Positions 9,686 to 25,272 of a stretch of DNA of 56,246 nucleotides are shown here, piece after piece. Positions within the stretch are counted from its first letter, which is position 1; each line of letters opens with the position of its first letter. Origin of the DNA: an uncultured Ruminococcus sp. (GTDB lineage Bacteria > Bacillota > Clostridia > Oscillospirales > Acutalibacteraceae); assembly GCA_905234535.1 (NCBI GenBank), contig CAJOII010000021.1:1-56246 (forward strand). Direction: 5' to 3'. The position numbers and the translations under genes were made by a program. A model generated the notes under the pieces. That model searched no databases, was not told the DNA's origin, and was given only the letters and a program-made list of their open reading frames with translations.

Positions 9686-9744
<59 letters not shown>

Positions 9745-9751
9745 ATTTGAC

Positions 9752-9878: not shown

Positions 9879-9890
9879 AAACAAATGTTC
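9879..9890 (+). promoter_or_regulatory. LexA-like box upstream of the Y-family polymerase
   Basis: AAACAAATGTTC matches the Gram-positive LexA palindrome GAACATATGTTC at 10 of 12 positions and lies 9 bases upstream of the -35 of the polymerase promoter. The gene it precedes belongs to a family usually under SOS control, which raises its credibility; the match itself is imperfect. Confidence 0.5.
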
Positions 9891-9958: not shown

Positions 9959-11467
9959 ATGAAAGAGAGGAAATATATCGCGATCGATCTGAAGTCTTTC
10001 TATGCCTCTGTTGAGTGCGCGGACAGGGGGATCGATCCTCTGGATGCTTTTCTGGTTGTCGCCGACGAGAGCAGAACCGCGAAGACCATCTGTCTCGCGG
10101 TTTCTCCCGCGCTGAAGGCGTACGGCGTTTCGGGCAGGGCGAGGCTGTTCGAAGTGATCTCAAGGGTGGATGAGATCAACAGAGAGCGCGAGAAGAGGAT
10201 TCTTCCTCGCCGCTTATCGGAGGACTCTGCTGAGTTTGAGTCTTTTCTCAGAAAAGATCCTTCGATTAAGCTCGGATTCATTATTGCGAAGCCCCGTATG
10301 CGCTTGTATGAAGAGGTCAGCGCGAAGATCGTCAATATTTACCTCAACTTTGTCGCGCCCGAGGACATCATTGTATATTCGATCGATGAGGTGTTCATTG
10401 ACGCTACCGACTATCTTGATACCTATCATATGACCGCCTACGAGCTCGCCGACGCCATGGTGAGAGAGGTGCTCTCTCAGACGGGCATCACCGCTACCGC
10501 GGGGATAGGCACGAACCTCTATCTCGCGAAGGTCGCGATGGATATAGACGCCAAGCATATCAAAGCGGATAAGGATGGGCTCAGGATCTCAGAGCTTGAC
10601 GAGATGAGCTATCGCAGACGGCTGTGGGCTCACCGCCCGCTCACCGATTTCTGGAGAGTGGGCAGAGGCACCGCGAGGAGATTGGAGAGCAGCGGGATCT
10701 ACACGATGGGGGATATCGCCCGCTATTCTGTCCATAACGAGGATTTTCTATACAAGATGTTCGGGAAGAATACCGAGCTTCTGATCGATCACGCGTGGGG
10801 ATATGAACCCTGTACGATCGCTGACATCAGAGCGTACACTCCATCTGTGAACAGCCTGAGCTCCGGTCAGGTGCTTCAGATGCCGTATGAGAACGACAAG
10901 GCGCGCCTGATCATCAAAGAGATGACCGACTCGTTGGTACTCGAATTGGTGGAGAAGCATCTCGTCACCGATCAGATGGTGCTGTATGTCGGCTATGATA
11001 TCGAGAATCTGAACGATAAGAAGCGGATGAAAGCGTATGCGGGCGGTATCGAGACCGACCATTACGGCAGAAAGGTGCCGAAGCCTGTTCACAGCTCTAT
11101 CAACCTGGGGCGTTATACCTCTTCGACTAAAATCATCACCGAGAAAATCATGGAGTTATATGACAGGATCACCGATCCGAACCTGCTTGTGCGCAGGATG
11201 AGCGTCTGTGCGAATCATGTCATCGACGAAAACAGCGAAAAGGCAAAGAAGAGACCCGAGCAGCTGAATCTTTTTTCCGATATATCTCAGCAGGCAGAGA
11301 ACCTTGAGAGAGAAGAATCTCAGCTTCAGAGTGAGCGAAAGATCCAGGAGGCAGTGATCGGAATCAAGCATAAGTTCGGGAAGAACGGTATCCTCAAAGG
11401 GATGAACTTTCAGGAAGGAGCGACCGCCAGAGACCGCAACGCTCAGATCGGCGGTCATAAGGCGTAA
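9959..11467 (+). CDS. Y-family (UmuC/UvrX-type) translesion DNA polymerase
   Basis: A 502-residue error-prone polymerase for lesion bypass. The catalytic carboxylates are in IAIDLKSFYASVE and YSIDEVFID, followed by helix-hairpin-helix and little-finger regions. A beta-clamp binding motif QLNLF is visible near residue 435, and the C-terminus ends GATARDRNAQIGGHKA, typical of the Firmicutes UmuC-like branch paired with YolD. That pairing, with the YolD gene five bases downstream, distinguishes it from housekeeping DinB. A LexA-like site upstream suggests SOS induction. Confidence 0.9.
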   Translation: MKERKYIAIDLKSFYASVECADRGIDPLDAFLVVADESRTAKTICLAVSPALKAYGVSGRARLFEVISRVDEINREREKRILPRRLSEDSAEFESFLRKDPSIKLGFIIAKPRMRLYEEVSAKIVNIYLNFVAPEDIIVYSIDEVFIDATDYLDTYHMTAYELADAMVREVLSQTGITATAGIGTNLYLAKVAMDIDAKHIKADKDGLRISELDEMSYRRRLWAHRPLTDFWRVGRGTARRLESSGIYTMGDIARYSVHNEDFLYKMFGKNTELLIDHAWGYEPCTIADIRAYTPSVNSLSSGQVLQMPYENDKARLIIKEMTDSLVLELVEKHLVTDQMVLYVGYDIENLNDKKRMKAYAGGIETDHYGRKVPKPVHSSINLGRYTSSTKIITEKIMELYDRITDPNLLVRRMSVCANHVIDENSEKAKKRPEQLNLFSDISQQAENLEREESQLQSERKIQEAVIGIKHKFGKNGILKGMNFQEGATARDRNAQIGGHKA

Positions 11468-11472
11468 GAATA

Positions 11473-11916
11473 ATGACAGACCGAGAGACACATATATATG
11501 ACGATATCATCCACCTGCCGCACCATGTATCCAAGACGCGCCCGCAGATGTCGATGCACGACCGCGCTGCGCAGTTCTCGGCTTTCGCTGCGTTAGTGGG
11601 TTTTGACGCGATCATTGAAGAGACCAAACGCTTCACAAATTCAAAGGTCGAACTTTCAGATTATGAGACAGAGATCATCAACGAGAAGCTGATGATCCTC
11701 AGCGACAACCTCTCGCTTCATCCATCGGTAACGGTTCGGTTCTTTCTTCCGGACGAGAGAAAAGACGGGGGAGAGTATATCACCTTTCGGGGTACCGTCA
11801 AGAAAATCGACCCAATCGGTCAGGTGATGATTTTTATGGACGGCAGCAAAATCCCGCTTGAAAACATCTATTCTGTTAAGTCCGATTTGTTTGCGTCGTT
11901 TTCTCGGGATGATTGA
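11473..11916 (+). CDS. YolD-like family protein
   Basis: A 147-residue protein with the YolD signature region SMHDRAAQFSAFAALVGFDAIIEET followed by a small beta-rich domain (GTVKKIDPIGQVMIFMDGSKIPLENI). YolD-like proteins are habitually encoded next to UmuC-type polymerases in Firmicutes and have been likened to the accessory subunit UmuD. It starts 5 bases after the polymerase stop with a weak ribosome site, so translational coupling is likely. Its exact activity is not established. Confidence 0.85.
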   Translation: MTDRETHIYDDIIHLPHHVSKTRPQMSMHDRAAQFSAFAALVGFDAIIEETKRFTNSKVELSDYETEIINEKLMILSDNLSLHPSVTVRFFLPDERKDGGEYITFRGTVKKIDPIGQVMIFMDGSKIPLENIYSVKSDLFASFSRDD

Positions 11917-18403: not shown

Positions 18404-18474
18404 TTCACATTGCAATTATAATTCTTTTATAGTAAAATAAAAATACTGGATACTTGTCGAAAGGGGATGTTCCG

Positions 18475-20331
18475 ATGCGTTTGAAAAGATCAATAATGAC
18501 GACTTTTTTATCGATTTTGCTTACTGTTTGTATCCTTTTCTCTACATGCGCTTTTTCTTTTGCCGCTTCTGCTGCGGCTGAATCATCTTCCGATGCCGAA
18601 GGTTCGGATGTATCTTATCAAAATAATGAGAGTGTTTCTGCCGATTCCTCTTCTGCGAAGGAGAAGCTGACCCATAGTATTGAACCGAAAGAAGAGCTTG
18701 CGCCGTCGGGCGCCCAGAACAGCTCTAAGGTTTCTGATCAGTCTTCTTCGAAGACGGTCCAGGCAGCTACTCAGGCTCCGACACAGAAGCCTGCTGAGAC
18801 GCTCACTCTCAGCGCGAAAACCGCAAAGACTTATGTCGGCTGTTACTATCAGCTGATCGCAAAGTCTAATGCGGCGGTTAAGTTCTCTTCTTCCAACACT
18901 GCTGTTGCAACGGTCACCGCTGACGGCTTTGTTTACGCTAAAAAGGCGGGTACCGTTAATATCACCGCAAAAACATCCGCAAAGTCCGCTGTCTGCAAGG
19001 TCACGGTCTCAAAGGGCAGCGCTGTGAATATCTCGCACAAGACCGCTACCGTGAACGAAGGAAAGACCTTCTTCGCGGCATCCACCACTTCAAAGGTCAC
19101 ATGGAAAACTTCCGACAACTCTGTCGCTACCGTTAAGGATGGATTTATCCTTGCGCTGAAGACCGGCAAAGCGGTGATTACCGTGTCAACATCTTCGGGC
19201 GCCGCTACCTGTCTTGTGACGGTTGTCGCTGCGGCTCCTTTCCGTATGTCTTATACCACGCCCAACTGTGCTTTGAAGAATTCGACCGTTACTTTTGTCG
19301 CGATCACAGATAAAAAGCGTACGGATGTGAAATTTGAATTCACAGTCGGATCTTCCAAGAAGACCGTGAAGGCGAGCTCCAAAAAGGCAGAGGGCAACAC
19401 CTATGTCTGGAAGGGATCTTATAAGTTTACCGCTGCGGGTACATATACCATCAAGGCTTACTCGCTCTGTAACAACAAGTGGTCGACCTCTCCCAACGGT
19501 CAGACTACCGCTTTTGTTGCCTCGTCCTCTGATACCAAGACGACCGTCTGTGCGAACCGCAGAGCCTCTGATAACTGTCTGAAATTTATCGCAGGCTGTG
19601 AAGGCTTCTTATCCTCCGTATACTATGATTCCTTCACCGGAGATCCTACCATCGGCTACGGCAGACTCGTATATAAAGGTCAGCAGTTCTATAACGGAAT
19701 GACGCAGACCGAGGCGTACGCGCTCTTAGCGTATACCGTCAATAACAACGGATTTTCCGCTGATGTCAACTCGTTCTTGGTCAAGAACAATATCAAGTTC
19801 AATCAGCAGCAGTTTGACGCACTGGTCGCGTTTGTCTATGGGACAGGCACCGGCGTACTCGTTGATGACGATGAGATCCGCGACGCGCTTTTGAAGTGTT
19901 CCGACGGTTCCGCAAAAAAAACGACCTATTATATCAACGATTCCTATGTCAACTTCAGAAAAGGCGCCGGCACCAACTACGGTGTGATCCGTATGCTTGA
20001 CAAGGGTACTGTTGTCACACTGATCAAGAAGACCAGCGCAAAGTGGTACAATGTCAAGTTAGCGGACGGCACCAAAGGTTATGTTTGCGCCGATTATGTA
20101 TCCTCGCGTACCACGGGCGGCAATCTTGATCTGAACTATATTAACAAACAGTATTTTATCAACAAATTCTGCCAATATCATCATGCCGGCGGCAAGTGTG
20201 TCCGCGGTCTCTTGGACAGACATATCGACGAGATGGAAATGTTCTTCTACGGAGACTACATCGATAACTATGGCGCGAATTCGCACAAATTCACCTTCAA
20301 ATGCGCCGTCAATCCTTCCTTCCACACCTGA
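18475..20331 (+). CDS. Secreted Big2/GH24 lysozyme with an SH3b domain inserted in the catalytic fold
   Basis: 618 residues. Signal peptide ~1-35 (hydrophobic core, then SFAASAAAE), Ser/Gln-rich linker to ~108, two Big2 (bacterial Ig-like) domains ~110-180 and ~181-252, and a further beta domain ~255-350. Then a GH24 lysozyme: FIAGCEGFLSSVYYDSFTGDPTIGYG (catalytic Glu ~376) to ~475. An SH3b domain follows at ~482-545 (YVNFRKGAGTNYGVI...GTKGYV). The tail AGGKCVRGLLDRHIDEMEMFF (~571-591) looks like the last helix of GH24, so SH3b is nested in the fold. ATG 18475 follows GGGGA; the track start is upstream. It likely cuts peptidoglycan at the cell surface or in competitors. Confidence 0.85.
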   Translation: MRLKRSIMTTFLSILLTVCILFSTCAFSFAASAAAESSSDAEGSDVSYQNNESVSADSSSAKEKLTHSIEPKEELAPSGAQNSSKVSDQSSSKTVQAATQAPTQKPAETLTLSAKTAKTYVGCYYQLIAKSNAAVKFSSSNTAVATVTADGFVYAKKAGTVNITAKTSAKSAVCKVTVSKGSAVNISHKTATVNEGKTFFAASTTSKVTWKTSDNSVATVKDGFILALKTGKAVITVSTSSGAATCLVTVVAAAPFRMSYTTPNCALKNSTVTFVAITDKKRTDVKFEFTVGSSKKTVKASSKKAEGNTYVWKGSYKFTAAGTYTIKAYSLCNNKWSTSPNGQTTAFVASSSDTKTTVCANRRASDNCLKFIAGCEGFLSSVYYDSFTGDPTIGYGRLVYKGQQFYNGMTQTEAYALLAYTVNNNGFSADVNSFLVKNNIKFNQQQFDALVAFVYGTGTGVLVDDDEIRDALLKCSDGSAKKTTYYINDSYVNFRKGAGTNYGVIRMLDKGTVVTLIKKTSAKWYNVKLADGTKGYVCADYVSSRTTGGNLDLNYINKQYFINKFCQYHHAGGKCVRGLLDRHIDEMEMFFYGDYIDNYGANSHKFTFKCAVNPSFHT

Positions 20332-22128: not shown

Positions 22129-23031
22129 TTATTTTATATATTGATCAATATATGACAGATACGGCTTGCGGTTTTGAACACTGTCGGGATTTGCGCGATA
22201 CCACTCAAACTCTTCTTTTAATCCCTCAGACAGCGTGACCGTAGGCTTTAATATTTCGTTCTGTTTGGACACATCCAATACATATTCGTAATCATAAAAG
22301 CAGAAATAATCTCTTTGCGGGATACTCTTATCAACAGATATAAATCGGGGAGTTTTGTCCGCTGCACGATAACACAGCTCCACCCATTCTTTGATGGTGA
22401 CGGTCTCTTTGTTTCCGACATTGAGGATATGATGATCGGGGTGCTGTCTGACGAGGATCTCTATCAGCCAGCACAGATCTTTTACATGGAAGAACTGCAG
22501 CTTCATCCTGCCGTCCTGCGGCAGACAGAACGGTCTGTCATGGACCGCACAGTCGAAGACAAACGGCTCCCGGTACAGATTCTCGTATTTTCCGTAAAAA
22601 TACGGTGGGCGCAGGATATACGAATGGGGAACACGGGCGGTCAGATACTGCTCTGCTTTGAGCTTGTTGATCCCGTAGTTTCCCCAGATATGATTGTATC
22701 CGCAGACTTGCTCTTCGCTAAACGGCTGTGGATTGGTCTCGGGATAGACGGCGCTCGAGCTGATAAGGATATAATCGTCGAAGCTGACACCCGATGAGAG
22801 GAGCGCTCTGATATGCTCTTCTGTATAGGCGGTGATATCCAAGACCGCGTCAAAGTGAGAGCCTGAGAGCGCATCTCCTAAGGAGAGCCTGTCTGCTTGT
22901 ATCAGGCGAACCCCCTCGATCTGTTCTTTGCTTCCTCGGTTGAGTACGGTCACATCATATCCGTTTGTGACAAAGTACTCTGCCGTATATTTGCTGACGA
23001 ACGCGGTGCCTCCCGTGATCAGTATTTTCAT
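22129..23031 (-). CDS. NAD-dependent epimerase/dehydratase (extended SDR)
   Basis: A 300-residue protein with the Rossmann start MKILITGGTAFVSKYTAEYF (a variant of TGxxGxxG), the Ser of ILISSSAVYP and the catalytic pair in YGINK. The fold and substrate-binding half (ILRPPYFYG...) indicate an extended short-chain dehydrogenase acting on a nucleotide sugar or similar. The glycine motif is altered (GGTAFVS), as in several atypical SDRs. It lies 11 bases after the small SOS-linked gene and is likely driven by the same LexA-box promoter. Confidence 0.8.
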   Translation of the reverse strand: MKILITGGTAFVSKYTAEYFVTNGYDVTVLNRGSKEQIEGVRLIQADRLSLGDALSGSHFDAVLDITAYTEEHIRALLSSGVSFDDYILISSSAVYPETNPQPFSEEQVCGYNHIWGNYGINKLKAEQYLTARVPHSYILRPPYFYGKYENLYREPFVFDCAVHDRPFCLPQDGRMKLQFFHVKDLCWLIEILVRQHPDHHILNVGNKETVTIKEWVELCYRAADKTPRFISVDKSIPQRDYFCFYDYEYVLDVSKQNEILKPTVTLSEGLKEEFEWYRANPDSVQNRKPYLSYIDQYIK

Positions 23032-23042
23032 GAATGCTCCTT

Positions 23043-23270
23043 TCAGTTTTCGATGAACCAGCGGTTCTTCTCGAGGAAGATGAATTTATCCTTCGCCTTG
23101 ATTCTGCATTTATACCTCAGTCCGGCAGACTCTGCTTTGACAGACGCGGCATATCTGAGATCGGTGATCCGATCAATCGGAAAGCTCCTGCCGTCATCCC
23201 AGTTGACGCACAGCGGTAAAATATTTCCTTCTTTGTCAAACTTAGCAGTAACAGATATATACTTCTTCAT
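23043..23270 (-). CDS. Small conserved-looking protein under a perfect LexA box
   Basis: 75 residues, one compact, probably beta-rich domain: MKKYISVTAKFDKEGNILPLCVNWDDGRSFPIDRITDLRYAASVKAESAGLRYKCRIK... followed by FIFLEKNRWFIEN. I do not recognise a named family, though the pattern WDDGR...I.D...AAS..A...G.RY.C.I looks like a conserved core rather than random sequence. The ATG at 23270 is chosen because AGGAG lies eight bases before it; the track start is a GTG two bases after the site. The promoter contains a perfect LexA palindrome, so it should be induced by DNA damage, probably together with the epimerase. Confidence 0.7.
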   Translation of the reverse strand: MKKYISVTAKFDKEGNILPLCVNWDDGRSFPIDRITDLRYAASVKAESAGLRYKCRIKAKDKFIFLEKNRWFIEN

Positions 23271-23302
23271 ATTCACATCTCCTGTTATTATGTTACATCA
23301 AT

Positions 23303-23331
23303 ATTATAGAACATATGTTCTTGTTTGTCAA
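23303..23331 (-). promoter_or_regulatory. Consensus promoter with perfect LexA box in the spacer
   Basis: On the minus strand: TTGACA, a 17-base spacer, TATAAT. The last 12 spacer bases are GAACATATGTTC (23309-23320), an exact match to the Bacillus-type LexA/SOS palindrome and directly abutting the -10. A repressor bound here would block RNA polymerase fully. Confidence 0.88.
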
Positions 23332-23403: not shown

Positions 23404-25122
23404 TTATAATCCCATATACGCCTTCATATCATCGGCGATTTTCTGTACAAAGCCGGCCGCTTCTTCGGGGGTGGCGCCGACGCCGGTGATATAGAGCTTG
23501 ATCTTCGGCTCGGTGCCGGAGGGGCGAACGATACAGCCGTTACTGCCCTCCAGAGAATAGGAGAGGACATTGGACTTCGGCAGGGTAAGCGCGGTCTTCT
23601 CACCGGTGAGAAGATCTTCAGAGACTCTCTCAAAGTAGTCGGCGATCGCGGTGACCTTGAATCCTGCCAGGGACTTCACGGGATTCTGTCTCAGAGAAGA
23701 CATCATATCGGACATCTTCTGCATACCGGACGCGCCCTCAAAGTAGAAGCTCAGTGTCTCGTTGATATAATAGCCGTGTTCTTTATAGATGGACTCCATC
23801 ACTTGCATCAGGCTCTTGCCCTGAGACTTGTAGTAAGCGGCCATCTCGCAGATCAGCATAGAGGCAACCACTGCGTCCTTATCTCTGACATAGGTGCCGG
23901 AAAGATATCCGCAGCTTTCTTCAAAGCCGAAGACATATCTGTCTTCTTCGCCTTTCTGCTCTAAGCCCAGGATCACCTCGCCGATGTATTTGAAACCGGT
24001 CAGGACATCTGTGGGAGAAAAGCCGTATTTCTTGCAGATGGAGTCGATGATCTTTGAAGTGACGATCGTCTTAACAAGGACAGGATTCTCGGGAAGATCG
24101 CCCTGCTCTATTCTGGATGATAAGATATATTCGGTCAAAATAGCGCCGGTTTCGTTACCGGTGAAGATTCTGTAGCTGCCGTCATCATTTCTGGCGGCGA
24201 TGCTGACGCGGTCAGAGTCGGGGTCAGTCGCGAGCAGCAGATCAGGCCGGACAGTCTCGGATAGCTTAAGTCCGTATTCAAGCGCTTCGGGAAGCTCGGG
24301 ATTCGGGAACGGACAGGTGGTGAAGTTGCCGTCGGGCATCTCCTGCTCCTTAACGATATGGACATCCTTGACGCCGATATCAGAAAGAACTCTTCTGACA
24401 AGGACATTTCCCGCGCCGTTTAGCGGAGTATAGACGACCGAGATGGGGGAGGAGTTGCAGATACCTTTGTGGATCTGCTGCTTCTCGACCTCCTCGAGGT
24501 ACGCGTCATAAGCTGAGTCGTCAACATATTTGATCAGTCCGCGCTCAACCGCTTCGTCAAAGTCGCATAGCTTGATATCATCAAACAAATCCAGCTTGCA
24601 GATCTCATCATAAACCGCGCCTGCGTTGGTATCGGTCATCTGACAGCCGTCTTCGCCGTAGGCTTTGTAGCCGTTATATTTTGCGGGATTGTGGCTTGCG
24701 GTCACCATAACGCCCGCCTGGCACTGATAGTGTCTGACTAAGAAGCTCAGCACGGGGGTCGGCTGGAGTTCTTTCGTGATATAGGCAGTGATACCGTTAG
24801 CGGCAAGAACACGCGCGGCTTCTCTCATGAATACATCCGCCTTGATCCTCGAATCATGAGAGATCGCTACGGCGCCCTTGCCATATTTGTTGAGAACAAA
24901 GTTCGCGAGTCCCTGTGTCGCCTGACGGACAACATAAATGTTCATCCGGTTGGTACCCGCGCCGATCGTGCCTCTCAGTCCCGCAGTGCCGAACTGAAGC
25001 GCAGTATAGAATCTGTCATAAATCGCGTCTTCATCATCCTTGATAGATTGAAGCTCGTCGATAATATCCTGATCCTCGGTTGCTTTTTGGAGCCATTCCT
25101 GATAAAGTTCGGTATGTGTCAT
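23404..25122 (-). CDS. pgcA: Phosphoglucomutase/phosphomannomutase (alpha-PGM family)
   Basis: A 572-residue enzyme interconverting glucose-1- and glucose-6-phosphate (or mannose phosphates). The phosphoserine loop TASHNPAKYNGYKAY, the metal loop ATDPDSDRVSI, the sugar loop GFEESCGYLSG and the phosphate-binding RPSGTEPKIKLY are all present in order. The length fits PgcA-type enzymes. The track's TTG start is replaced by ATG 25122, preceded by AGGTGATTG. It would supply GalU with glucose-1-phosphate. Confidence 0.93.
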   Translation of the reverse strand: MTHTELYQEWLQKATEDQDIIDELQSIKDDEDAIYDRFYTALQFGTAGLRGTIGAGTNRMNIYVVRQATQGLANFVLNKYGKGAVAISHDSRIKADVFMREAARVLAANGITAYITKELQPTPVLSFLVRHYQCQAGVMVTASHNPAKYNGYKAYGEDGCQMTDTNAGAVYDEICKLDLFDDIKLCDFDEAVERGLIKYVDDSAYDAYLEEVEKQQIHKGICNSSPISVVYTPLNGAGNVLVRRVLSDIGVKDVHIVKEQEMPDGNFTTCPFPNPELPEALEYGLKLSETVRPDLLLATDPDSDRVSIAARNDDGSYRIFTGNETGAILTEYILSSRIEQGDLPENPVLVKTIVTSKIIDSICKKYGFSPTDVLTGFKYIGEVILGLEQKGEEDRYVFGFEESCGYLSGTYVRDKDAVVASMLICEMAAYYKSQGKSLMQVMESIYKEHGYYINETLSFYFEGASGMQKMSDMMSSLRQNPVKSLAGFKVTAIADYFERVSEDLLTGEKTALTLPKSNVLSYSLEGSNGCIVRPSGTEPKIKLYITGVGATPEEAAGFVQKIADDMKAYMGL

Positions 25123-25272
25123 GATCAATCACCTGCAATTTTAAAATTGAATTGAACGAAAGCTCAGTGCTTTACTATCAAATTGACATATATTATATCA
25201 TAAAACAGAGATATTTACAATAATATAATCCTATAATTTTATACAAATCAAGATGGTAATAAAGAAAAATGA

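Follow-up and report, generated by a model that had tools for sequence, protein, structure and literature searches.

An orphaned ImuB-C-like small gene under putative LexA control in an uncultured Ruminococcus

The small gene and its promoter

The window (the whole stretch of 56,246 nucleotides, analyzed throughout in silico) carries on its minus strand an ORF of 75 aa that runs from an ATG at 23270 to a stop at 23043, with AGGAG upstream as a good ribosome-binding site; initiation at an in-frame GTG two codons upstream would extend it to 77 aa. On the basis of homologues, profiles and dN/dS, the product of 23043..23270 was designated an ImuB-C-like (DUF6504-related) protein, the orphan of its Y-family polymerase. 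The promoter of this gene, TTGACAAACAAGAACATATGTTCTATAAT at 23331..23303 on the minus strand, occurred once in the window. It is of the sigma-70 type, TTGACA-N17-TATAAT, and matches the consensus at every position, with the -35 element at 23331-23326, a 17-nt spacer and the -10 element at 23308-23303. The palindrome GAACATATGTTC (23309-23320), called as a LexA box from sequence, genome counts and conservation, lies in the spacer and abuts the -10 element, 33 bp before the ATG. Direct reading of the sequence thus bore out the initial annotation, which had reported an exact SOS palindrome touching the -10 of such a promoter. As in the LexA regulon of Bacillota, an operator of the GAACN4GTTC type overlaps the promoter of the small gene; for Bacillus and Clostridia this class of motif has been established (PMC4234289).

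In the 1.93-Mb genome (87 contigs), GAACNTANGTTC occurred a single time. Three sites matched RAACAWATGTTY: one precedes the small gene and one, at window 9879, the sole Y-family polymerase found; the third lies 186 bp ahead of a secD-like ORF and was taken as probably due to chance. No genome-wide enrichment was observed for the plain motif GAACNNNNGTTC (GAACN4GTTC), with 20 sites versus 48 for the reversed control, and the evidence therefore consists of the position and conservation of the box and not of motif counts. A lexA gene was found in the same genome (contig 72; LexA_DNA_bind, E=8e-17), and its own promoter holds GAACAAACATTT. We infer that in undamaged cells LexA would occupy GAACATATGTTC between the -35 and -10 elements and block RNA polymerase; DNA damage would then lead to RecA-driven LexA cleavage, freeing a strong promoter and inducing the gene.

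The next ORF on the strand had been annotated as an SDR-type epimerase, and the Pfam search agreed (SDR/NAD-dependent epimerase, 22129..23031, minus strand; Pfam Epimerase, E=1e-15). It begins at 23031, 11 bp after the stop of the small ORF, and is possibly co-transcribed. This close spacing favors a reading in which the operator's true target is the SDR gene, induced by damage for an envelope or sugar function, and the small ORF only happens to lie in between. However, the flanks of the small gene in 28 relatives contained no SDR gene, while the box and the small gene stayed together. The SDR gene was rejected as an SOS target on this synteny, and the reading is largely refuted, with hardly any probability left to it; the SDR gene looks like a passenger outside the conserved unit. 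Elsewhere in the window, positions 18454-20331 encode a secreted lysozyme of the phage type that carries Ig-like and SH3 domains.

Homologues and polymerase operons

Of 200 sampled genomes from the window genome's family, 44 had a homologue of the small protein by single-sequence search; a profile search found one in 64 of 100 genomes of the genus, and 27 of 399 genomes of the phylum also had one. Most of the homologues examined (69 of 109) sit directly behind a Y-family DNA polymerase; the small gene is usually second in an operon that opens with a Y-polymerase of ~415-435 aa, and LexA boxes, often two, precede the polymerase. Among operons with enough upstream sequence, a box at ≤1 mismatch was present in 61/63 and a perfect box in 43/63, compared with 3.0 and 0.14% of background 162-nt windows; the homologue rows are related and the counts not independent, so these ratios are descriptive and not probabilities. 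The operator is thus conserved upstream of orthologues, as in a LexA regulon. Putative LexA (SOS) control of the 75-aa gene, already proposed in the initial annotation, is strongly supported now that the upstream regions of homologues have been checked and the box is present. The same annotation had offered three roles for the protein; gene order favors that of a polymerase accessory, and no support was obtained for a checkpoint or envelope factor.

Standalone ImuB-C proteins have been described as beta-rich, ~80 residues long and bearing a C-terminal Trp, in operons with DinB, LexA, UmuC plus YolD, or a DUF955 peptidase (Aravind et al. 2013, PMC3765255). Operons with a DinB/UmuC-type polymerase or a DUF955 peptidase were likewise found in relatives, the window itself having lost the polymerase. 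ImuB-C has also been reported as coupled to two YqjH subgroups, mostly from Clostridia (Timinskas and Venclovas 2019, PMC6511836), and these may include the small-protein branch.

Two further arrangements were observed. A sub-branch of six members (L055, L063, L066, L069, L070, L034) carries an insertion ahead of its C-terminal RWF(V/M)E; its genes are mostly coded directly behind an M78/IrrE-like (ex-DUF955) peptidase, Pfam-confirmed in L055 and L070, with no LexA box near the gene. The closed genome G661 holds two near-identical copies of the polymerase-small gene pair (L226 and L228), one per contig end, and the Y-polymerase frame of one copy is broken, a recent duplication followed by decay.

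Relationship to ImuB-C and DUF6504

The 75-aa protein had no match in Pfam or NCBIfam, and nothing significant was found in the PDB by sequence or with Foldseek, in keeping with a published finding that no fold in the PDB comes close to ImuB-C (PMC12926913). No Pfam YolD (PF08863) match was obtained for the protein or its family members. The predicted structure (pLDDT 91.5) has seven strands, and W71 and R52 are invariant; in its length (~80 aa), its all-beta make-up and its conserved basic residues and C-terminal Trp, the protein resembles standalone ImuB-C/DUF6504 proteins.

The link to that group was made through profiles. Weak Pfam DUF6504 matches were obtained for the C-termini of ImuB proteins encoded on rhizobial and other plasmids, and one of these plasmid ImuB proteins carries the annotation 'DUF6504 family protein'. 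Of 399 Bacillota genomes, 110 had standalone DUF6504 proteins; among the shorter of these proteins, many are encoded after a Y-polymerase, with LexA boxes. The profile of the standalone proteins matched ImuB C-termini at E=3e-11. The same Bacillota DUF6504/ImuB-C profile matched the small-protein family colinearly along its entire length (E=5e-5, prob 67%), and none of 100 column shuffles scored as well. Direct comparison of the small-family profile with alphaproteobacterial ImuB C-termini (hhalign) was not significant (E 0.3 and 0.013), so the family link depends on the Bacillota intermediates. Pfam DUF6504 (PF20114) matched 0/32 members at E≤10, a search in which the HMMER filters drop most weak matches, and had no match in the window genome. 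Predicted structures of the small protein and of a standalone DUF6504 protein reached a mean pLDDT of ~91 each and showed the same strand order.

Alternatively, the protein could be a small beta protein with no kinship to ImuB-C that has come by convergence to partner a polymerase, as YolD and UmuD do. The moderate profile probability, the non-significant direct comparison and the blank Pfam result are what such convergence would give; however, the full-length colinearity, a score above 100/100 shuffles, the shared strand order, and the Y-polymerase and M78-peptidase neighborhoods common to both groups argue against it, and we regard it as improbable. That the small-protein family is a divergent ImuB-C-type branch is strongly suggested, not proven, by these comparisons. 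The protein had earlier been described as one that could not be named and might be new; this holds in that neither Pfam nor NCBIfam has a name for the branch, but profile comparison and gene neighborhood assign it to the standalone ImuB-C proteins already in the literature.

Orphaning at the pgm locus

Next to the small gene lies the phosphoglucomutase gene pgm (23404..25128, minus strand), identified by Pfam and synteny, which serves as the anchor of an ancestral pgm-polymerase-small gene locus. L003, of the same genus, has the Y-polymerase between pgm and the small gene; the window, L004, L095 and L201-L203 have pgm followed by the small gene, with no polymerase between them. Together with the finding that the only Y-polymerase of the window genome is a long one, the order in L003 points to deletion of a short polymerase in place, with the SOS promoter of the small gene kept. 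In the ancestor, the small protein would have come from a LexA-controlled operon adjoining pgm, with the short (~415 aa) Y-family polymerase first; in the window lineage this polymerase would have been deleted where it stood, leaving the small gene and its LexA-boxed promoter.

Orphans were defined by the lack of a polymerase in 1.5-3 kb flanks and by a genome-wide Y-polymerase domain search. Among Ruminococcus relatives there were 18 (window, L002, L004, L095, L201-L214), all with an intact ORF and operator; a box was present in 18/18 and perfect in 14. The register TTGAC(A/T)-N5-box-TATAAT was kept in 16/18, the same architecture as in the window, while the four central bases varied freely; a fixed register with free central bases is the pattern expected of a selected operator. 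In the small-protein tree (77 columns, poorly resolved), supported branches forced at least 6 label changes involving orphans. Nearly all orphan genomes retained a UvrX-type Y-polymerase. Two of them, G623 and G678, each also have a partial second Y-polymerase match, and no Y-polymerase was detected in orphan genome G689 (80% complete). The small gene, orphaned of its polymerase, is apparently still damage-inducible, as judged from its operator.

Such a gene might be a decaying remnant of the deleted operon, transcribed but useless. The polymerase has been lost, and a loop, GGxGx(R/K)(Y/F), that is near-invariant in operon members (68/69) was kept in only 9/24 orphans, as decay would predict. 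Against this, the comparison of the window gene with that of L002 gave pN 0.067, pS 0.66 and dN/dS ~0.04, by which measure the small ORF is under purifying selection, and the ORF and operator are intact in 18/18 Ruminococcus-relative orphans. Decay is accordingly very unlikely. The loop was also absent from all nine members adjoining a UvrX-type polymerase (0/9). It thus tends to change with loss or replacement of the polymerase, making it a candidate polymerase-contact site, a role we put forward as a hypothesis; the raw counts are strong, but the association of orphan status with a lost GG loop could be compared in only 3 independent pairs on supported branches, where the sign test was not significant.

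The surviving polymerase and the proposed function

The sole Y-family polymerase found in the genome by domain search (IMS, E=5e-25) is a long, UvrX/YqjW-like protein of 502 aa (9959..11467, plus strand), the proposed current partner of the small protein. Upstream lies a LexA-like box, AAACAAATGTTC (9879..9890), recognized from the sequence and the RAACAWATGTTY genome search. Behind the polymerase is a gene for a YolD-like small protein of the UmuD-analogue family (11473..11916, plus strand; Pfam YolD, E=8e-4, below the curated cut-off). The window gene at 9959-11467 thus joins an IMS domain to an adjacent YolD gene, as in the UvrX/YqjW type, a subtype assigned from length and context and not from a tree; in relatives, YolD homologues likewise come after the long polymerase. 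In the window genome, 12 kb separate the small gene from the UvrX-type polymerase, which counts against the proposed partnership. Just upstream of the polymerase promoter, a tRNA-Pro-like sequence (9686-9745), recognized by eye with no ARAGORN call, stops after the start of the T-arm and is a possible scar of element insertion.

In ten relatives of the genus (L216-L225), the small gene, a UvrX-type polymerase and YolD are coded in one direction (the L219 contig ends before YolD), and GTACATTTGTTC precedes the small gene. The small-protein family can therefore also pair with the polymerase type left in the window genome. These relatives form their own branch (nine are in the tree), and for the window genome the pairing is possible rather than demonstrated. 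Their arrangement is a distinct three-gene SOS cassette (ImuB-C-like gene, UvrX-type polymerase, YolD) in about ten species.

We consider it probable that the small gene encodes a LexA-repressed, divergent standalone ImuB-C-type accessory of translesion polymerases, orphaned and now most likely serving the UvrX-type polymerase, YolD and RecA. Today the protein would act as a small all-beta mutasome adaptor, most likely with the surviving UvrX-type polymerase/YolD/RecA system (9959-11916); its change of partner and its contacts with polymerase, RecA or DNA are predictions of this explanation. The main rival is an ImuB-C-type protein that acts without a polymerase, for instance by binding lesions or recruiting other repair enzymes, and hence outlives it. 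Repeated orphaning, in which the LexA box and purifying selection were nevertheless kept, is consistent with such a role, as is the polymerase-free result for G689; DNA binding has been proposed for ImuB-C, and operons without polymerases listed (Aravind et al. 2013, PMC3765255). The persistence of a UvrX-type polymerase in nearly all orphan genomes, and the Y-polymerase operon as the commonest context, speak against it, and we judge it unlikely, though less so than convergence. A broader proposal, offered tentatively and at somewhat less than even chances, is that ImuB-C works as an SOS effector that is either exchangeable or independent of a polymerase, retained under a tight LexA promoter of its own after repeated loss of the Y-polymerase and re-deployed, with the GG loop lost, to the UvrX-YolD-RecA mutasome or directly to damaged DNA.

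Comparison with known systems

ImuB-C has been described as the least characterized module of SOS mutasomes (PMC6511836), and lineages with a putatively LexA-controlled ImuB-C but without its own polymerase offer natural experiments in which its function is uncoupled from that polymerase. The present analysis also adds to the predicted SOS regulon of gut Ruminococcus relatives and provides a profile for a family invisible to Pfam and NCBIfam.

Like YolD/YqjX, the UmuD analogues of Gram-positive UvrX/YqjW polymerases, the family comprises small LexA-controlled genes adjoining a Y-polymerase, and in Staphylococcus aureus a distant yolD is reported to have its own LexA site (PMC6511836). Unlike them, the small protein has no Pfam YolD match, and behind the UvrX-type polymerase of the window genome there is already a distinct YolD-like gene. 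The Deinococcus imuY-imuB-C-dnaE2 cassette (PMC8072749) is similar in having a standalone ImuB-C of ~80 residues under RecA/LexA control, but there it is coupled to DnaE2 and an inactive polymerase, and no such gene adjoins the small gene of the window. Close in form, too, are standalone ImuB-C/DUF6504 proteins (PF20114; PMC3765255, PMC6511836): both groups are small, all-beta proteins with a conserved C-terminal Trp, linked by a colinear profile match, both occur in LexA-boxed Y-polymerase operons, and a neighboring M78 (DUF955) peptidase, seen in one sub-branch of the small family, has been published for ImuB-C. The small family differs in its divergent sequence, missed by Pfam DUF6504, in having the GGxGx(R/K)(Y/F) loop where DUF6504 has a W-D-T-G-x-WW segment, and in being repeatedly orphaned with its own LexA promoter.
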